Shown: in pieces, positions 1 through 14,415 of the stretch
Layout: every line of letters starts with the position of its first letter
How positions within the stretch are numbered: the stretch's first letter is position 1
Source: a virus
Virus record (IMG/VR): IMGVR_UViG_3300030104_005368
Location: 1-25,253 of that record
Length of the DNA stretch: 25,253 bases
Strand: one strand, 5' to 3'
Translations under genes and position numbers: made by a program
Notes under the pieces: generated by a model
The model's input: only the letters and a program-made list of their open reading frames with translations
Database searches by the model: none
What the model was told of the DNA's origin: nothing

Positions 1-1978
1 TGTTGAAGAAAGGGATAGGCATGAGGTCACCACACATTTCGACCACGGTGCGCTGCATACGTGAGGCTGATGCCAAGAAGAGGTCGGCAAAGTTCAGGGT
101 CTTGCCGATCTGTCGCCACTTGGATTTGAACTGAGGGTCGGACTGAATGTCTTCGCCAAAGACTGACACCGTTCTGTCGGTGTGCAGGTCGAGACCCTCA
201 GTGAATGATTGGATCAGCTTGTCATCACCTGACAGCAAGGCGGCAACACGAAGCTCGATCTGAGACAAGTCGAAGCCAATGATCGAACCGTTAGTCCAAC
301 GGGACTTCATCGCCTTCTTGATGGGGGGAGGAAAGGTCTGAGCTGATGGACTCTTGCAGGTGATACGGCCTTGTATCGTCCCGCCTTCCGATCCTGTGTC
401 CTTGGGCAGGGATGGAACTATGTACCACGTCGGGTGAGCTAAACCAATCTCCTTCGAGAACGGAATAAGTACCGATGACTTGTCCTGTGGTCTGTTCCTC
501 CTGTGTTTCAGCAGGGGGTACAGGTAGGTCGAGATCAACTTCTGTGCTGAAGCATGGTACTTCACTACCCTGATCGCAGACTGCAGTCGATGATCCTTCG
601 GCAGGTAGGATGAGAGTAGGTTGCGATTGTCCTCGGACCATGAGATCTTTTTCGTCTTGGGTGTAAGGGAAAGCAGGGGGTGACTGAGGATGTCGATGGA
701 GGAGTGACTGTCGATCTCTTCGATGATCTCGTCAATGAACTCCTGCTTTGACTTGGCTGAGCCGGTTCCTTCGAGCACAAGATTGTACTTACTCTTGGAT
801 ACTCGCGCTGCGATCTCACACTTGAAAGTCAGGTTCTTTAGCTGCTTGTTGAGCAGGTCAAAGGACATGGGGATACCCGACTCTGACATGGTGATACATG
901 ACCAGATGGTATCGGAGTAATGCTCGATACTTTGGGGGGAGAGCTTACTCTCTTTCGTCTCGGCTAAACTCTTCATCAAGGTTTTCGGACACAGTGCAAG
1001 CTGCGAGTGCGATGAAGTTGAGAGTGAACTTGCTGATGTCGATGGAGGTGGCAGGCAGCTCGTCGAAGATTGTGTGGTCTCCACCGATGGGCTTGGCCCA
1101 GAGCTGAGGGTGAGCGAAGACTTCCTTGAAGCACTGCTTGAGGTCCTTGGCTCTGAGTCGGAAACTTTCTCCGTTGAAGTTGAGGGAGAAGGTAATGTCT
1201 CTATCGAAGAGATGGACTGGGTGTTGGTCGGGCATGGCTGATCTTTCAAGATTCTTTTGGCAAGCTCAGAGACACACAACATTGTATTGTGAGTGTCTTG
1301 CGCGTTGTAGGAAATAATCTCTGCGTCTTTAGGGCTCTTGAAGCGACCGTCTTTTATTGTTTGCTCGTAGGTGTGGGTGCCAAGAACCGGACCCAGAGAC
1401 TTGAGTGACTTCTCTGGGCGCAGCTCGTTGTGGATGTAGTTGACGACCGAAAGGTCGATGAGAGTTTGTCGGCCATCAAGGACAAACCTGAAGTCTGGAA
1501 GCTGGCGAAGGTACTGAATGTCAAACTGTAGGTTCATCCCAAGGATGGTATTTGAGTGTTGGAGCCACTTCCTCAAGAGGGTCCGGTGGGATTCGACTGA
1601 CATCTGGAAGACCATGCTCGTCGCGGGCGATAATGCCGCTAGTGTAGAGCAGCTCCAAGGGGCTGAGTCCTGTCTCGTTTGCTCTTGACATGAGGAAGTC
1701 TGCGATTTGTTCGAGTCTGTCACTGACTTGGTCTTGGAAGTCGATGTCGAGTTCGTGATCGTAGTCTTCGAATCCGGGAAGGAAGAGTTGCATCGGGGGT
1801 CGTACTCCGGCAGGGTAATTGCGACAGTGAGAACAAGATCATCTCTTGTCACACCATCAGTGTGCATGGATCTCAAGGGATTGAACAGCTTCTGTTCGGG
1901 CAGAAGCTTGCCTTCACTGTTGGCATGGCACGCGCCATACGATTCGATGTCGAGTGAGATTACCCTTGGGCTTGTCAT
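1..1978 (-). CDS. Family A DNA polymerase with 3'-5' exonuclease (C-terminus beyond window)
   Basis: Replicative phage DNA polymerase. The frame stays open from the ATG at 1978 to the left edge (659 codons), so the C-terminal palm and motif C are missing. The exonuclease domain is first: ExoI LDIESYG (D10, E12), ExoII GMNLQFDIQYLR (D153), ExoIII YNAQD (Y224, D228). The polymerase domain follows: motif A GFDLSQIELRVAALLSGD (D570, E575) and motif B beginning R622-x3-K626-x2-N-F630. An SD AGAGGAG sits 6 nt before the ATG, and the gene starts 28 nt after the UDG stop, so they are probably co-transcribed. Two stretches (about residues 62-122 and 250-336) are very rich in Ser, Thr and Pro and interrupt the exonuclease and the exo/pol linker. 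In both, another frame looks like ordinary protein. F630 occupies the position of E. coli Phe762, and the Tyr766 equivalent is Phe. The assignment is firm; the nature of the two inserts is not. Confidence 0.95.
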   Translation of the reverse strand, partial: MTSPRVISLDIESYGACHANSEGKLLPEQKLFNPLRSMHTDGVTRDDLVLTVAITLPEYDPRCNSSFPDSKTTITNSTSTSKTKSVTDSNKSQTSSCQEQTRQDSAPWSCSTLAALSPATSMVFQMSVESHRTLLRKWLQHSNTILGMNLQFDIQYLRQLPDFRFVLDGRQTLIDLSVVNYIHNELRPEKSLKSLGPVLGTHTYEQTIKDGRFKSPKDAEIISYNAQDTHNTMLCVSELAKRILKDQPCPTNTQSISSIETLPSPSTSTEKVSDSEPRTSSSASRKSSLTLSSGPSPSVETTQSSTSCLPPPSTSASSLSTSSHSQLALCPKTLMKSLAETKESKLSPQSIEHYSDTIWSCITMSESGIPMSFDLLNKQLKNLTFKCEIAARVSKSKYNLVLEGTGSAKSKQEFIDEIIEEIDSHSSIDILSHPLLSLTPKTKKISWSEDNRNLLSSYLPKDHRLQSAIRVVKYHASAQKLISTYLYPLLKHRRNRPQDKSSVLIPFSKEIGLAHPTWYIVPSLPKDTGSEGGTIQGRITCKSPSAQTFPPPIKKAMKSRWTNGSIIGFDLSQIELRVAALLSGDDKLIQSFTEGLDLHTDRTVSVFGEDIQSDPQFKSKWRQIGKTLNFADLFLASASRMQRTVVEMCGDLMPIPFFN
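945..1235 (-). CDS. Candidate overprinted ORF inside the polymerase gene (96 aa)
   Basis: No family is recognised. The ORF lies in another frame on the same strand, entirely inside the polymerase gene, over the Ser/Thr/Pro-rich linker between the exonuclease and polymerase domains. It starts at an ATG with GAAAG 7 nt upstream. The product has normal globular composition, with mixed hydrophobic, aromatic and charged residues, for example FSLNFNGESFRLRAKDLKQ and FTLNFIALAACTVSENLDEE. The polymerase frame over the same DNA is low-complexity and resembles the +1 shadow frames of undisputed genes here, such as the UDG and the DUF932-like gene. This suggests that this frame is or was the selected one. 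It could be a nested gene, or the trace of an insertion later captured in the polymerase frame. No homolog is known to me. Confidence 0.35.
   Translation of the reverse strand: MPDQHPVHLFDRDITFSLNFNGESFRLRAKDLKQCFKEVFAHPQLWAKPIGGDHTIFDELPATSIDISKFTLNFIALAACTVSENLDEEFSRDERE
1521..1793 (-). CDS. Candidate overprinted ORF inside the polymerase exonuclease domain (90 aa)
   Basis: No family is recognised. It lies in the same alternate frame as the nested ORF at 945-1235 and covers the Ser/Thr-rich insert between ExoI and ExoII of the polymerase. Its 3' end runs on through the codons for the conserved ExoII motif. A GGAG lies 11 nt before the ATG, a slightly long spacing. The product is acidic with regular hydrophobic spacing (LPGFEDYDHELDIDFQ, VSDRLEQIADFLMSR), which would suit a small helical protein. 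The polymerase frame here reads mostly Ser, Thr and Lys. A stop in this frame near 1830 means it is not simply an N-terminally extended reading. Reality rests on composition alone; a chance shadow remains possible. Confidence 0.35.
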   Translation of the reverse strand: MQLFLPGFEDYDHELDIDFQDQVSDRLEQIADFLMSRANETGLSPLELLYTSGIIARDEHGLPDVSRIPPDPLEEVAPTLKYHPWDEPTV

Positions 1979-2811: not shown

Positions 2812-3000
2812 CTACTCGTCTACTTCTCGAAGCAACTCGTCGGCTTCGATCTCATCGGAAGCAAGGCCGCACTCGATGAGGTGTTGAACGATCTGTTCGT
2901 AGTTGTAGCCAAGAACAATGCGGCAGTGTTCTACCTTGGTGGTGATCTCATTCAATCTCTTGCTCTCCTGTGCCATCATGCGAAGTATATCTGATGTCAT
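2812..3000 (-). CDS. Small hypothetical protein (62 aa)
   Basis: Not recognised. The product begins MTSDILRMMAQESKRLNE and ends in an acidic stretch (SDEIEADELLREVDE). The predicted character is helical, and YNYEQIVQHLIECGL looks like an amphipathic helix. The frame stays open to an earlier ATG at 3048, but that one has no SD, while the ATG at 3000 has AGGGAG about 7 nt upstream, so I chose the shorter form. It overlaps the 3' end of the sigma-like gene by 53 nt in another frame, so translation is probably coupled to it. It lies between the sigma-like factor and the UDG, suggesting a small accessory to either transcription or DNA metabolism (inference only). Confidence 0.65.
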   Translation of the reverse strand: MTSDILRMMAQESKRLNEITTKVEHCRIVLGYNYEQIVQHLIECGLASDEIEADELLREVDE

Positions 3001-3499
3001 TCCAGTGCTCCCTGATTCTTTTGATTCGTTTGGTCGTCGCTGATTCATGAACGTTCATGATCCTACTGGCTTGTCTCTGCGTGTAGCCTCTGCTTAGAAG
3101 CAACACAAGATCCCGCATTTTCGGGGTCAACCTGTCCCAAGGGATCGAGCTGGGGGGAGGGGGTTGATTGTTTGGTTTGCCGGGGATGTAACCCAAGTCG
3201 GTGAAGTTGTACTCTCGTTTGTTTGCGGCACGAGTTTTTATTTTCCCCCCCACGTATCTGGTGGTGGTGATGCCGTTGACCTTGCGGTACTTACGGATGA
3301 GGTAATCGTAGAGGCGGGGCTTGAGGTAGGTGATGTAGCTGCCTTTATCTGGATCCCACGAAGGAAGCAACGACATGCAGACTTCATAACCCTCATTGAT
3401 AATCTCATCAAACTCCCAACGTGGGAATGAAAGCAGACGGGGGCGTACCCACCACCTGAGAAATGCAAGAAGATCATCTTGGCTTACCTCCTTGGACAT
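2948..3499 (-). CDS. Sigma-70-like phage transcription factor
   Basis: Likely a phage-encoded sigma-like factor that redirects host RNA polymerase. At 183 aa it is compact. Residues about 25-72 (FDEIINEGYEVCMSLL, then WDPDKGSYITYLKPRL) resemble sigma region 2, with the typical F/W-D-P-x-K-G segment leading into a tyrosine-rich helix. After a Pro-rich linker (about 107-118), residues about 124-168 (LTPKMRDLVLLLSRGYTQ, then SRIMNVHESATTKRI) form a region 4-like helix-turn-helix. The ATG at 3499 has no SD, but a TGATACACT extended -10 ends 6 nt before it, consistent with leaderless translation. A perfect AAGGAGG lies just inside the gene. An upstream terminator separates it from the previous operon. 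An alternative is a non-sigma HTH regulator. No promoter consensus for it could be found in the window. Confidence 0.72.
   Translation of the reverse strand: MSKEVSQDDLLAFLRWWVRPRLLSFPRWEFDEIINEGYEVCMSLLPSWDPDKGSYITYLKPRLYDYLIRKYRKVNGITTTRYVGGKIKTRAANKREYNFTDLGYIPGKPNNQPPPPSSIPWDRLTPKMRDLVLLLSRGYTQRQASRIMNVHESATTKRIKRIREHWNDIRYTSHDGTGEQEIE
3487..3493 (-). promoter_or_regulatory. Perfect Shine-Dalgarno inside the sigma-like gene
   Basis: AAGGAGG occurs at codons 3-5 of the sigma-like gene, while its own ATG lacks an SD. Nine nucleotides further on is an ATG in the +1 frame that opens a 79-codon frame (3238-3477), whose product is hydrophobic at first and then Ser/Thr-rich. No in-frame start codon follows at a usable distance. 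It may be coincidence, a decoy ribosome site or a signal for a short peptide. Confidence 0.35.
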
Positions 3500-3940: not shown

Positions 3941-4238
3941 TGCGGTATTCCTCCTCTTTCTTTATTGAGAATGGTGTGATTGATCGGGCCTTACTCCAGT
4001 CATCAACCACGTAGCGAGTTCCCCATGCACCAGCAGGTAGTTGGTGGTGGATGAAACTTGCGACGGAGTAGATGGACTCGAGTTCTTCTGTGTTTGCACA
4101 AAGAACTGCAGATACAAAGTCGTTCTTGAGTGCTCGATGCAGGAAGGCTGAAGGCTTGGTCCCAATCTCGAACCAAGCGATCAGCTGTTCCTTGATATGT
4201 GGGGGCATGAGTTTGTCATAGCCTTCGAAGTTCATCAT
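3912..4238 (-). CDS. Conserved phage protein of unknown function (108 aa)
   Basis: The pattern (GTKPSAFLHRALKNDF, then VSAVLCANTEELESI, then HHQLPAGAWGT and a tryptophan) resembles a small protein I know from many phage genomes: a Gly-x-Pro segment, FLxAxLxNDLxxAVxxA, and a closing P-x-x-x-W-G-[ST]. I know no assigned function. The start at 4238 forms an ATGA overlap with the stop of the upstream membrane-peptide gene, so I prefer it to an earlier ATG at 4328 that has no support. The C-terminus (SIKKEEEYRNGTHQETDP) is charged and overlaps the next gene by 29 nt. The central family resemblance is moderate. Confidence 0.72.
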   Translation of the reverse strand: MMNFEGYDKLMPPHIKEQLIAWFEIGTKPSAFLHRALKNDFVSAVLCANTEELESIYSVASFIHHQLPAGAWGTRYVVDDWSKARSITPFSIKKEEEYRNGTHQETDP

Positions 4239-8346: not shown

Positions 8347-8583
8347 TCAGTCCATCTCGCCATGGAAATAGTGGACCAGATACTGCAGAGTCGCTTTCTT
8401 CAAAGCCACTTCCTGCGGATCCAAAGCCTTGGGTGTTTGAGGCAACACCTGTGGGTCATCCGGCCCCGAAATGATGAAGGTGGGCTGCTCCTGATCGCGC
8501 AGATACTCTAGCACCTGCAGGGCAGCCGACACCTTCTGGGTAATGGGGGGAGACACCTTCATGTTAATTTCAGGCTTGTCCAT
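8347..8583 (-). CDS. Small hypothetical protein coupled to the helicase (78 aa)
   Basis: Not recognised. It has a polar N-terminus (MDKPEINMKVSPPITQK), a helix (VSAALQVLEYLRDQEQP), a Pro/Asp-rich middle and a helical end (EVALKKATLQYLVHYFHGE). Its ATG shares one base with the TAA stop of the helicase gene (TAATG), so it is very likely translated by re-initiation after the helicase. It may be a helicase accessory such as a loader or primase-like partner, but no motif supports this. Confidence 0.7.
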   Translation of the reverse strand: MDKPEINMKVSPPITQKVSAALQVLEYLRDQEQPTFIISGPDDPQVLPQTPKALDPQEVALKKATLQYLVHYFHGEMD

Positions 8584-10010
8584 TAATGCTCGTCATCATA
8601 CTCCCTCTTCAAGGTCATGCCAGCAACACCACGGTGATGTCCCTCATTTTGGGACAGCCTTGTCTGCCTCAGATCCCATGAACAGTCCTGAGCAATCCGC
8701 TGGATCAGCATGTTGCGGGGAACGTGCATCTTGACTTTGTTTGCCCGCAGCCAACTTTCCCACTGACTCCTGACAATCTCATTGGCAGTAAACCCACTCT
8801 CGTTCCTGATGAACCGAGCCTCCAAGAAGCTGTCGAAGGGGTTGTTCTGCAGGTGATACAGACGGATCGCGTTCTTGCCCGCCTCAGGAACAGGCCACTT
8901 GTTGTCCCGATCAGACCCCTCAAGCTCAATCGCACCACGAACAGCCCATGCTGCAATGCCGGGGATCTCCTTCTTCAAATCCGCATCCAGCTCAAAATCC
9001 TCACGACCCTCAAAGCTGACATCAAAAGGCAGAACCAACATCTTGCCGGACAATCCACGGCCCTTGTTGGGCAGAACTGGGATCTCGTTGGACTGCATCA
9101 GCGGCGCAGCCCCAACAGTCACGTTTCTGAGCTGCCTTCGGTACTTCACATTCACAGTCATGGGGTCACGGCCCACGATGTTCTTGAGTATCCGACAAAC
9201 CCTTTCCCCTGACTTGCTGTCAATCTCTGAAACCTCGCTGATACTCAGCACCTTGCTCAGTTCCAAACCGTCCAGCCCGAACTCGTTTGCCAGATCCTCC
9301 AACGACGTACTCAGATAAGTGGTCGGGCCGGTCAACTGCTTCAACACACTGCAGATTGTGCCCTTGCCACCACGGATCTTGCCGTACATCAACAGCCACT
9401 TCGCATACTTGCGCGTGCCCATCAAACAATACCCAAACCAACGCTGCAGCAAACGACCCCACTCAGGATCTCCGTTGCCCCATTCGTGCAATGCCTTTTC
9501 CCAACGAGGACACTCAGCATCAGGATCAATCCCACACGGAATAACCGACGTATCAAACCATCGCTGGTCTCTGTCTTTCATTACCCAAGACTCAGAAGTG
9601 CTGTTTTTGATGTCGATGATGTGATCTTGGAACGCAATACAATGTGCTGGATCAATATGTTGTTCCTGTGGTATGATCCAACAAGGAACCTCTTCCTTGT
9701 CTAGCCGACATAGAGCTTCCAAAGCATTGACGACACCCTCGATCTTGTTTTTGTCGGGGGCATAGCGTCTGATGACAGGACCGTTTGCGGTAAATTGTTC
9801 CCAAACCGCATCTTCCAAGATGAGCAGTACCCGCTCACGGATCTTGTCTTCACGAAGAATCTCCCACTGTTGACCGTCCCAGTGCCAAAACTCTCCCCTC
9901 CACCGATACAAACCTTGATGTCCTGACGATCCTGTGAAATAATCACGAAGTACTCGCCTACCAACTTTGATAGGCTCCAGTGATTCCAACGGGTTATTGT
10001 TCCAGTTCAT
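8583..10010 (-). CDS. SF3-type D5/P4-like helicase (primase-associated)
   Basis: Replication helicase of the phage/plasmid P4 C-terminal, D5 type. The N-terminal about 195 residues (RWRGEFWHWDGQQWEILRED, then a Trp/Asp-rich middle) match the D5_N region. The ATPase follows: Walker A G210-KIRGG-K216-G-T, a Walker B-like KVLSISEVSE (253-262), and motif C SNEIPVLPNKG with N308, ending KMLVLPF. No N-terminal primase catalytic motif is visible, so priming would need another protein. The usual Arg before the final strand of the core is replaced by GLSGK (319-323). AAGGGA 5 nt before the ATG supports the start, and 475 aa is a normal length for a helicase-only form. It is the first gene of the minus arm, 23 nt from the divergent plus-strand gene. 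Confidence 0.88.
   Translation of the reverse strand: MNWNNNPLESLEPIKVGRRVLRDYFTGSSGHQGLYRWRGEFWHWDGQQWEILREDKIRERVLLILEDAVWEQFTANGPVIRRYAPDKNKIEGVVNALEALCRLDKEEVPCWIIPQEQHIDPAHCIAFQDHIIDIKNSTSESWVMKDRDQRWFDTSVIPCGIDPDAECPRWEKALHEWGNGDPEWGRLLQRWFGYCLMGTRKYAKWLLMYGKIRGGKGTICSVLKQLTGPTTYLSTSLEDLANEFGLDGLELSKVLSISEVSEIDSKSGERVCRILKNIVGRDPMTVNVKYRRQLRNVTVGAAPLMQSNEIPVLPNKGRGLSGKMLVLPFDVSFEGREDFELDADLKKEIPGIAAWAVRGAIELEGSDRDNKWPVPEAGKNAIRLYHLQNNPFDSFLEARFIRNESGFTANEIVRSQWESWLRANKVKMHVPRNMLIQRIAQDCSWDLRQTRLSQNEGHHRGVAGMTLKREYDDEH
9915..9943 (+). promoter_or_regulatory. Candidate sigma-70 promoter for the plus-strand arm
   Basis: TTGATG and AATAAT are separated by exactly 17 nt (4/6 and 5/6 matches to consensus). 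The site lies inside the helicase coding sequence and would start transcription about 85 nt before the first plus-strand gene. The 23-bp hinge itself has no room for a promoter. Chance matches of this quality are common, so support is modest. Confidence 0.3.
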
Positions 10011-12219: not shown

Positions 12220-12475
12220 GTCCATCGCCCGTAGTGGGGGGCCTATCCTGCAGGAGCTCGGCATCCGTGATCCAGCACACTGGGCCGGTAGCGCAGGCAA
12301 CCTTGGTGAAAGGATCCGCACTGAGGTTCTGGACGACACTCACTTCAAGGACAGGTATGTCCATGTAGCCAACTTCCTTGCTGAAAACAGCTACATGAGT
12401 GACAACATCGAATATCTGTCTGCATTGATCCTTCGTGCAGCTGCAGTGAATCTGCTTGGAAAGCATCCTTCGTGA
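12092..12475 (+). CDS. Hypothetical protein before the large terminase (127 aa)
   Basis: Not recognised. The first 40 residues are Ser/Thr/Pro/Lys-rich and overprint the end of the previous gene by 128 nt; the remaining part is globular and helical (GVQALNRILTLDRESIARS, RYVHVANFLAENSYMSDNI, SALILRAAAVNLLG). AAGGAGA 6 nt before the ATG at 12092 is one of the best ribosome sites in the window, and there is no good in-frame alternative start further down, so the long overlap appears genuine. It ends in a GTGA overlap with the large terminase. A packaging-related role, possibly the true small terminase, is an alternative. Confidence 0.65.
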   Translation: MSSPTTKNHTSRPSTSQPKKPERPKLGRRGVQALNRILTLDRESIARSGGPILQELGIRDPAHWAGSAGNLGERIRTEVLDDTHFKDRYVHVANFLAENSYMSDNIEYLSALILRAAAVNLLGKHPS

Positions 12476-14415
12476 AGGTTGCACCAGTTCCGATGAAGGA
12501 TCAGGGTAATCCTCTTTACCCTCTTCCTCCCGACTATCTTGAGCTGACACCCGAAGGGCAACGACTGTCTCGGGTGAACGCATGTCGTCAGTGGATGGTG
12601 CAGCACAACGACCCGCAAAGGAAAGCAACGGCCTTTGCGTCAGCTGTGCAGTTCTTCGATACGTACTATCTGTACCCTGACGATGAAGCAGAGTTCTATC
12701 CCATGTTCTATGACGATACTCCACTGGAGCCGCCGCTAGGACACTTTGCCATCTACAGGTTGTGGGCTCTGTCGCGTCGAGCGATCGTGGTTGCTCCCCG
12801 TGGTTTCGCAAAGAGCAACTGCATTCGCAAGTCTGCACTGCTGCAAATGCTTTCGAGGCCGGGGTACTCTTTCATTTACGCAACATCGTCTCATGACAAT
12901 GCAGCCCAGACTGCACAGATACTGAAGACGCAGTTCACGGACAACAGCAGGATCTATGACGACTTTGCTCCCGAATCTCCGGGTGGCCGCATTACGCCCA
13001 AACGTGGTGAAAAGTCATTCGGTATCGAGCTGATGTACCTTGATAATGGATCTTGGTTCAGAAGTCTTTCTGCAGAGTCGAGACAGCGTGGTGGTCGTCC
13101 TCAGTGTTATCTTCTTGATGACCCTGAATACGACGGTAGGGCCGGAACATCTCTCTCGTTGCTTCGTTCTTACATGGAACAGCTTCTCTTCAAGGTGGTC
13201 ATGCCCATGGTGACCCGAAGAGACACCAGCGTTAGGTGGCTGGCTACTTTTGTGTCAAGGAGGCACTATGCGTGGCACGCGATGGATACTGAAGAAACTG
13301 CCTCTGGGCATCGTTCTAGGGACCCTCGTTTTGACGAGTGGAGCCGTCTTGTACTCAAAGCGGAGTATCGAGACGAAGACGGAGATCGTCATTCTTGTTG
13401 GCCTGTTATGTGGCCTCTTACTGACTCCGACAAGGCAAAAGACGATCGACTGAAAGATGCGGTTTCCCTTGAGCAGATCAAGCGACTCATCGGATCTGCA
13501 AACTACGCTGCCGAGTACATGGCCGAACCGGGTCAGGCAGAGGACCAGCACTTCGGAACCCTCGAAGAAACAAAGCATGGTTGGTGGACTGAAGAGCCTG
13601 ACGGTGAAGATCCCATCAACAGCAAGACCCTCATGTGTTGGCATGACAAGGACGGCAACAAGAACTCCGAAAGCCTTGCCAACTTCCTGAGGAATCGAGT
13701 CCGAACCTTCATTACCTGCGACACTTCCTACACTAGCACCAAGGATTCCGACTACAAGGTGGCAACCCTGATGGGGTACGATCTTGTTGAAGCTTCTCTC
13801 TTCGTGTTGGATTGTTGGGCGGGACAGACCCGAGAGTCGGTCTTGATCACCAAAGCATTCCAGATGGCACAGCGGTGGGGGTGCAAGTCCATCCACCCCG
13901 AGGTCGTATCTCAGTCTGTCTCTCTTTACAACACGATGCAATCAATCGTGAAGCAGAGAGCTGTGGAGATGGCCGGTGTTCAGGAGCTTCCGAGGATCGT
14001 GCCCCTTAGGGTGGGCCAGATGGACAAGACTTCCAAGATCAACGCCCTCGGATTCAGGTTTGAGCATGGCTTGATCAAGATGCCCCTTCGAAGACGGTAC
14101 GACAGCCCGTGGTCCATGCTTTTCAACCAGATCGACGAGTTCAACCCAGACGCACCCAGTGGGGGGCTCCAGCACGACGATGTCCTTGACACCGTTTCCA
14201 TGTCGATGTTCATCGTCAAGGGCCGACAGTACGCCACCAAGAAACTTGATGACCCTGTGGATCCTTGGGAGCAGATCCGCAAAGGAATCACAGTCGATCC
14301 CAACTCAGGACTGAACTACGTAGAGTCCTTGGATCCTTCAAAACTGACCCCAGAACAAGTGTCGGAGCTATTCAATGCAAGACAATCAGGAACCGATTCA
14401 GGATCAAAAGTCTGA
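12472..14415 (+). CDS. terL: Terminase large subunit
   Basis: ATP-driven DNA packaging motor and nuclease that fills the procapsid through the portal. ATPase: Walker A-type APRGFAKSN (K114) and Walker B CYLLDDPE (D216, D217, E219). Nuclease: FITCDTSYTSTKDSDYK supplies D417 and a second acidic pair, E477 lies in HPEVV, and GGLQHDDVLD (D569, D570, D573) gives the last metal ligand. The length (647 aa) is normal. The GTG at 12472 overlaps the previous stop as GTGA; an ATG at 12493 is possible but lacks a well-spaced SD. The downstream small gene overlaps its 3' end by 41 nt, followed by the portal, the usual packaging order. Confidence 0.95.
   Translation: MKVAPVPMKDQGNPLYPLPPDYLELTPEGQRLSRVNACRQWMVQHNDPQRKATAFASAVQFFDTYYLYPDDEAEFYPMFYDDTPLEPPLGHFAIYRLWALSRRAIVVAPRGFAKSNCIRKSALLQMLSRPGYSFIYATSSHDNAAQTAQILKTQFTDNSRIYDDFAPESPGGRITPKRGEKSFGIELMYLDNGSWFRSLSAESRQRGGRPQCYLLDDPEYDGRAGTSLSLLRSYMEQLLFKVVMPMVTRRDTSVRWLATFVSRRHYAWHAMDTEETASGHRSRDPRFDEWSRLVLKAEYRDEDGDRHSCWPVMWPLTDSDKAKDDRLKDAVSLEQIKRLIGSANYAAEYMAEPGQAEDQHFGTLEETKHGWWTEEPDGEDPINSKTLMCWHDKDGNKNSESLANFLRNRVRTFITCDTSYTSTKDSDYKVATLMGYDLVEASLFVLDCWAGQTRESVLITKAFQMAQRWGCKSIHPEVVSQSVSLYNTMQSIVKQRAVEMAGVQELPRIVPLRVGQMDKTSKINALGFRFEHGLIKMPLRRRYDSPWSMLFNQIDEFNPDAPSGGLQHDDVLDTVSMSMFIVKGRQYATKKLDDPVDPWEQIRKGITVDPNSGLNYVESLDPSKLTPEQVSELFNARQSGTDSGSKV

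Follow-up and report, generated by a model that had tools for sequence, protein, structure and literature searches.

Small genes apparently nested out of frame at tolerant positions of a phage DNA polymerase gene

The stretch of DNA analyzed here (the window, WIN in sequence comparisons) spans positions 1 to 25,253 of the virus record IMGVR_UViG_3300030104_005368 from IMG/VR, and our subject is a pair of small open reading frames (ORFs) lying out of frame inside its DNA polymerase gene. The polymerase ORF occupies 2..1978 on the minus strand and is open to the contig end, which cuts the gene. It encodes a family A DNA polymerase with a 3'-5' exonuclease; the homologous polymerase in L057 and L058 (viral contig loci are labeled Lnnn) measures 826 amino acids (aa). 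The window polymerase matches Pfam family PF00476 (DNA_pol_A) with an E of 2.8e-18 and 66.5 bits against a curated cut-off of 34.3, the sole Pfam match at E 0.001, and a profile for its family picks up Taq and Klenow polymerase chains. Residues D10/E12, D153 and Y224/D228, which we take to be the ExoI, ExoII and ExoIII motifs, are invariant across a 10-sequence alignment and surround the inserts described below intact. The residues DLSQIELR, presumably motif A, are also present. With the exonuclease motif residues kept around the inserts, exonuclease activity is predicted.

The first nested ORF, n1 (n1 to n4 denote nested ORFs at sites 1 to 4), lies at 1521..1793 (minus strand) and encodes 90 aa in the -1 frame relative to the polymerase. 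It has its own ATG, its own TGA and, 11 nucleotides (nt) before the ATG, a GGAG (1805..1808, minus strand) that resembles a Shine-Dalgarno (SD) site and falls within the polymerase codons for LPEYDPR. An earlier note on this DNA had described this ORF and the +1 relation of the polymerase frame to it, and both descriptions hold; the ORF sits wholly inside the polymerase ORF, 1978..2. The same note had put the excess of the polymerase at about 60 residues. We measured 43 beyond the alignment core, a Ser/Thr-rich insert at 1655..1783 (minus strand) that covers the 5' half of n1. The final ~134 nt of n1 (1521..1654, minus strand) overlie conserved polymerase, and its stop codon TGA is formed within the TTT-GAC codons of the ExoII Phe-Asp pair. 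A second, equivalent case, absent from the listing of the earlier note, is n2 at 945..1235 (minus strand), which encodes 96 aa, again in the -1 frame. It has nearly the same extent as a Ser/Thr/Pro-rich insert of 93 residues in the polymerase frame just after ExoIII (956..1234, minus strand), and it is homologous to nested ORFs in L059 (E 3e-21) and L060. The homology evidence is stronger for n2 than for n1, yet no SD site was found for n2.

Compensating indels in the assembly, which the earlier note had named as a refuting observation, were rejected: the nearest contigs, L057 and L058, bear the same two ORFs, and so three contigs and the homologues agree. At the stop rate of +1 shadow frames in 14 window genes, about 4% of 90-codon stretches are expected to be free of stops. 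Judged from the sequences, n1 is more than a chance ORF, given these low odds and the homologues that independently keep its start, frame and protein.

Related polymerases were collected by a protein scan of viral contigs (50 loci), a profile scan (best 80 of 82) and a second profile scan (67 loci), which returned mostly the same contigs. The alignment comprises 79 polymerases, namely the window and 78 of the best 80 profile-scan loci; L070 and L117, which are without the N-terminal part, were omitted, and the polymerases of L137 and L138, which come from named MAG contigs, and of L151, first met in the second profile scan, were read outside the alignment and the counts. Inserts of at least 25 aa relative to the alignment core fall at four core positions. 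Site 1, between ExoI and ExoII, carries a nested ORF in 17 of the 79 polymerases: the window, L057, L058, L059, L081, L120 and a group of eleven (L095, L105-L112, L118 and L128). Site 2, just after ExoIII, does so in five (the window and L057-L060). Site 3, at core position 288, has short ORFs in L081 (3984-4187) and L120 (4059-4178), each with one hydrophobic, membrane-like segment and no SD site nearby. Site 4, at core position 372 ahead of a GRITC motif, holds the largest guests of the survey, n4 of L124 (4086-4460, 124 aa, over a 120-aa Ser/Thr-rich insert) and of L125 (4086-4475, 129 aa, over a 127-aa Ser/Thr-rich insert), which are 24% identical to each other (E 1e-7). Altogether, 20 of the 79 polymerases have at least one nested ORF, with up to two per gene; many of these bearers are near-copies.

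Every nested ORF is in one frame, two bases into the polymerase codon, which is the -1 frame. Each Ser/Thr/Gln-rich insert of at least 25 aa among the 79 polymerases has a -1-frame ORF with its own start and stop, and the polymerase frame is free of stops throughout all these inserts. Only some relatives have the inserts, and most are without the Ser/Thr-rich stretches. The start codon is ATG, except in L106 and L112, where a GTG takes its position. At sites 2 and 4, the ORF starts -1 to -13 nt and stops -7 to +8 nt from the ends of the insert. At site 1 it begins just before the insert and stops 62-149 nt past its 3' end, in conserved polymerase. The open frame of site 3 has its first ATG 112 nt upstream of the insert in L081 and inside it in L120; for L081 we adopted an internal ATG by likeness to L120. 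Eight further polymerases (L087, L089, L096, L097, L099, L101, L104 and L129) serve as a negative control: they have site-4 inserts of 45-51 aa, TPADRVDAA-like and alike in the polymerase frame, at the same place as the L124/L125 guests, and these are without a comparable nested ORF.

A 69-row quick tree places the window clade with L060 (support 99) and the n4 pair beside twelve polymerases without nested ORFs (support 100). Presence at site 1 takes three changes on this tree, and each guest type is confined to one part of it. The root branch is very long, L081 and L120 are unplaced, and the tree does not tell separate gains from one gain with losses.

An 83-aa ORF in the -1 frame was also seen in L086 and L088 (the same as L023 and L025) at 3945-4193, with AGGAA upstream and 75% identity between both. 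It was excluded from the counts because it lies over polymerase that aligns without an insert of at least 15 aa. With no long insert beneath, its likeness may only mirror the polymerase; the ORF may be passive or a wholly overprinted gene.

Which of the two frames is constrained was examined in close relatives. The insert part of n1 (1655-1793) has six variable columns among WIN, L057 and L058, five at polymerase codon position 2, which is ORF position 3, and one at position 3. The changes are thus 5:1 synonymous to nonsynonymous in the ORF frame and 1:5 in the polymerase frame, whereas elsewhere in the polymerase gene position 3 of its codons holds 48 of the 60 variable columns. For both inserts together, nine variable columns are at position 2 and three at position 3, against 6/6/49 at positions 1/2/3 outside the inserts (Fisher p 1.9e-5, position 2 vs 3). 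Read in the ORF frame, ten of these changes are synonymous and two are not (23% synonymous expected, p 2e-5); read in the polymerase frame, three are synonymous and nine are not (28% expected). Each ORF taken singly departs from the core, with a position 2/position 3 split of 5/1 for n1 (p 3e-4) and 4/2 for n2 (p 4e-3).

For more distant pairs, the insert DNA alone was translated in each frame and aligned against shuffles of the same residues, and z-scores were compared. In 32 of 34 pairs the score of the ORF frame exceeded that of the polymerase frame; these comprise 27 of 28 pairs in the site-1 group of eleven (eight members used, near-copies dropped) and five of the six others. In the site-1 group, the mean z-score was 11.5 in the ORF frame, against 5.0 in the polymerase frame and 4.5 in the third. 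The polymerase-frame score is close to that of the third frame, and similarity in the polymerase frame is thus about what relatedness leaves in an unused frame. For n2, the ORF and polymerase frames gave 31.2 vs 9.1 (WIN-L059), 9.2 vs 0.4 (WIN-L060) and 10.0 vs 1.5 (a further pair), and for n4 of L124 and L125 12.9 vs 0.4. Inside the insert, these comparisons show the ORF protein, and not the residues of the polymerase frame, to be kept by evolution. The claim of the earlier note that the ORF is the constrained frame is thus supported for the insert part; for 1521-1654 it needs refining, as the polymerase frame is clearly conserved there and the ORF frame at most co-conserved. Relatives with a conserved polymerase frame and a broken ORF, the pattern that note had named as contrary, were looked for among the 79 polymerases and not seen; the inserts without an ORF are of another kind.

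At site 1, all 17 ORF-bearing polymerases and one of the 60 others have the motif of an SD site followed by ATG or GTG; the 77 tested exclude the truncated L123 and L131, the motif was chosen after viewing the bearers, and these are not independent of each other. The sole exception is L060, sister of the window group, which has no insert but keeps AAGGAAGAGACATG (L060 3163-3191), the frame stopping after five codons. This suggests that the SD site and ATG of L060 are a relic of a guest lost by in-frame deletion. At site 4 the motif is found in both bearers and none of 75 others. Here L124 and L125 have Gly-Asp where six of the seven others printed have Ser-Ser (L075 has Gly-Ser), and the Gly-Asp codons supply AAGGGAG/AAAGGAG 13 nt from the n4 start. 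Over 19 nested starts from 15 genomes (near-copies excluded), an SD site of at least four bases lies within 3-12 nt in 14, compared with 8.5% of 1060 other out-of-frame ATGs. Where n1 ends in ExoII (six sequences, three of them near-copies), the codon before GAC is always TTT, which yields the TGA of the ORF; of 58 others with the ExoII Phe and no site-1 ORF, 47 have TTC.

These observations bear on two explanations that need no inserted gene or no internal start. The first is that the ORFs are passive shadows, opened by codon bias over a genuine Ser/Thr-rich linker of the polymerase. Codon bias does co-open frames, and the earlier note was right that ordinary genes here have Ser-rich +1 shadows: over 14 window genes, Ser/Thr/Pro make up 32% of the +1 shadow vs 20% in frame. 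A passive origin, however, predicts that the polymerase frame is the conserved one, which it is not; the SD site and start at site 1 are, but for one case, retained solely in polymerases that have the ORF, and the eight ORF-less inserts at site 4 indicate that inserts do not create ORFs automatically. We rejected passive shadows on the frame z-scores, the polymorphism counts and the distribution of the site-1 motif, and find them scarcely credible. The second is -1 ribosomal frameshifting, which would give a truncated exonuclease fused to the guest in place of internal initiation. The -1 frame of all guests agrees with it. A start kept at one alignment position with an SD site in all 17 site-1 cases, L106 and L112 having GTG instead of ATG, does not, and no slippery heptamer was noticed at the few starts read by eye (with no tool scan); we consider frameshifting highly improbable.

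The codon usage gives an indication of age. In 18 of 19 cases, the synonymous codon choice of the ORF frame is nearer to that of the remaining polymerase gene than is the choice of the polymerase frame. This marks the ORF as the ordinary frame and points to it as the older one. The use of codon usage as a pointer to the older frame of an overlap follows an argument in the available portions of PMC3744397. For the insert, the polymerase frame would then be newer and overprinted and the small gene older. A single old n1 family is possible as well, from a match between n1 of L059 and n1 of L081 (E 0.004).

The reverse order, classic overprinting, supposes that the polymerase had a Ser/Thr-rich loop first and that the small proteins arose de novo in its -1 frame later. 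The nested proteins are orphans with only weak Pfam, PHROG or phage-record matches, and n1 extends into conserved polymerase as an overprinted ORF would; both fit this order. An older host frame beneath the ORF does exist under the 3' part of n1. Beneath the inserts it was not found, the host residues being not preferentially kept there and absent where the ORF is absent. Insertion of whole genes is favored over de novo overprinting because no ORF-less Ser/Thr-rich insert of at least 25 aa was seen by eye among the 79 polymerases, the ends of insert and ORF coincide at sites 2 and 4, and the codon usage of the ORF frame is the host-like one. We regard classic overprinting as unlikely.

Over the 3' part of n1, the evidence for dual coding is no more than suggestive. 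Synonymous differences between WIN and L059 are fewer there (5/22 vs 110/236, p 0.04), and the three near sequences have one variable column in 134 vs 60 in 1425 (p 0.057); L081-L120 shows no drop (15/23 vs 141/262). When synonymous codons were redrawn, the z-score of this part was 4.5 for WIN-L059 and 0.4 against L060, which is without n1; conserved polymerase core without a nested gene, however, reached 4.9 there and 6.0 in L059-L060.

No significant Pfam family was found for ten of the nested proteins and no significant PHROG family for 15 (one of which is the doubtful L023 ORF), the best E being 0.025. Searches of three nested proteins against a phage collection by tblastn gave no match for two and one match at E 0.07 for the third, and a profile search of n2 against PDB sequences had a best E of 0.75. 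A model of n2 from four sequences (mean predicted local distance difference test score, pLDDT, 75) consists of a β-hairpin, a helix and a long C-terminal helix; its fold searches gave no match at E ≤0.001 and no Z of 5. The best solved look-alikes of n2, at chance-level scores, are ZapA chains: Foldseek returned 4p1m_B at E 0.84 and a template modeling (TM) score of 0.32, and VIA Z values were 2.5-3.8 over 58-62 residues with a root-mean-square deviation of 3.9-6.8, tied with unrelated folds. We treat the ZapA likeness of the modeled n2 as a weak lead. The model of n1 is helical and of low confidence (mean pLDDT 62). The site-3 peptides of L081 and L120 (MSYNRT... and MYNRF...) look related by eye.

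A further explanation is a homing element of the ShiLan type, in which the ORF would be a mobility enzyme. The architecture is the same as far as the available portions of PMC11855218 describe it, with an insertion open in both frames and an out-of-frame ORF, and two sub-threshold PHROG matches lean the same way, n2 to an RNase H family (E 0.025) and n4 of L124 to a DNA invertase family (E 0.082). Among the ten (Pfam) or 15 (PHROGs) nested proteins, however, there is no significant nuclease family and no HNH match that would make one an HNH endonuclease, and the sizes, 57-107 aa for n1 proteins and 39 aa for a peptide with a single hydrophobic segment, are low for enzymes of this sort. A homing element is thus very unlikely. 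No Rfam match at the gathering score, sought as a check for self-splicing introns, was found in the window, L124 or L120, and a general Pfam scan of the window polymerase (E 0.001) showed no intein family, with no search aimed at inteins made.

We propose instead that small complete genes entered the polymerase gene out of frame, at positions that tolerate them, are internally initiated and are read through by the polymerase, and we put the probability of this at roughly three in four. Ribosomes would initiate at the nested start codon within the polymerase mRNA, aided in most cases by an SD site made of polymerase codons, and the small protein would be made along with the polymerase. Ribosomes in the polymerase frame would read the guest as a flexible linker, placed in the exonuclease, at the exonuclease-polymerase junction or before the palm; we infer from its composition that the insert stretch is a loose linker. 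The frame relation may favor this. The +1 shadow of 14 window genes has 0.034 stops per codon vs 0.054 in the other shadow, and such a stop-poor, Ser/Thr/Pro-rich shadow would ease the read-through of guest genes. A guest in this phase may be likelier to be read through, as a hydrophilic stretch, which would account for the same phase at all sites. From their position we would guess that n1 and n2 are small accessory proteins whose production keeps pace with that of the polymerase.

Several results weigh against this proposal. At site 2, the SD-plus-start motif is present in only two of five bearers and also in two of 72 others, and five of the 19 nested starts (WIN n2, L081 n3, L120 n3, L124 n4 and L125 n4) have no SD site within 3-12 nt. 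The population test consists of 12 variable columns in three related sequences, and near-copies are many among the bearers. Related pairs exceed their shuffles in the polymerase frame too, about as in the third frame; L095-L112 favors the polymerase frame (9.5 ORF vs 11.1 polymerase), and L081-L120 is not significant (0.5 ORF vs 0.8 polymerase). The insert-only likeness of n1 between WIN and L059 is modest (z 3.8 vs 1.4, one of 300 shuffles as high). With its distant z-scores weak, the case for n1 of the window leans less on distant homology than on the polymorphism among close relatives, the start site and the shared pattern. Scans of viral contigs with n1, n2, n4 and two n1 relatives found no copy outside the polymerase and hence no source for the inserted genes. 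Over the 209 loci searched for stand-alone relatives, one of 344 nested-protein matches lies outside the polymerase; it is in L025 (E 0.008, 29 aa, antisense to a 413-aa ORF) and was taken as chance.

A wider proposal, on which we are evenly divided, is that the polymerase gene of this family of uncultured phages is a recurrent nesting ground for several families of small genes, at four sites and with up to two per gene. The polymerase would then be overprinted on its guests and gain new linkers as side products of the codons of other genes. Its codons would be bent to provide the ribosome-binding sites and stops of the guests, as in the Gly-Asp for Ser-Ser before n4 of L124/L125 and the TTT-GAC stop in ExoII, and the arrangement would be a device that ties small proteins to polymerase synthesis.

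Other genes of the window point to an ordinary tailed-phage context. They include a primase-like gene at 8583-10010 (minus strand; phrog_6088, E 6e-55), a large terminase at 12472-14415 (plus strand; phrog_38, E 4e-37) and a sigma-factor-like protein at 2948-3499 (minus strand; a weak match, E 9e-4). A corrected scan for other host genes, covering the window only, returned n1, n2 and two offset-1 rows, with no further offset-2 row. A crude version covering the window and 19 loci missed n1 and n2 of the window; besides nested ORFs in L022, L120, L139 and L141, its rows were taken as shadows of ordinary genes.

Should the proposal hold, it would describe a route to overlapping genes opposite to textbook overprinting: a finished gene is inserted out of frame, and the host protein absorbs its shadow as a linker. 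A phage DNA polymerase seems able to accommodate one or two foreign stretches, each 33-127 residues long, at four positions. With its nested genes present, absent or apparently lost, the survey offers natural material for questions on dual coding, and gene callers that forbid large overlaps, and standard annotation with them, would miss such nested phage genes.

Among known systems, the polymerase spacer of hepatitis B virus is overlapped by the surface gene, and there too a variable, unstructured polymerase segment shares its DNA with a protein in another frame. The enzyme and virus are unrelated, and the overlap is a single fixed one in a very compact genome, whereas here insertions are present or absent at several sites in phages whose longest contigs reach ~50 kb. 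De novo overprinted viral genes, as treated in the available portions of PMC8227390 and PMC3744397, likewise have both frames of one stretch coding; in those a new frame arises on an old gene, while here the small ORF looks old and the polymerase reading new. None of the titles and abstract openings searched, with few preprints and few subscription papers among them, was seen to describe nested genes within the DNA polymerase of a phage. The nearest published case, by analogy, appears to be ShiLan, in which an HNH gene is inserted out of frame in a phage methylase (available portions of PMC11855218). As described there, the insertion is likewise stop-free in the host frame and read as a poorly structured loop, with the real protein in the other frame, and the guest starts near the beginning of the insertion and stops at its end, as is found here at sites 2 and 4 and not at the 3' end of site 1. 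The ShiLan guest is an HNH protein in a dispensable methylase, with no detectable ribosome-binding site; the guests described here are several orphan small proteins, at four sites of a DNA polymerase, with SD sites at 14 of 19 starts.

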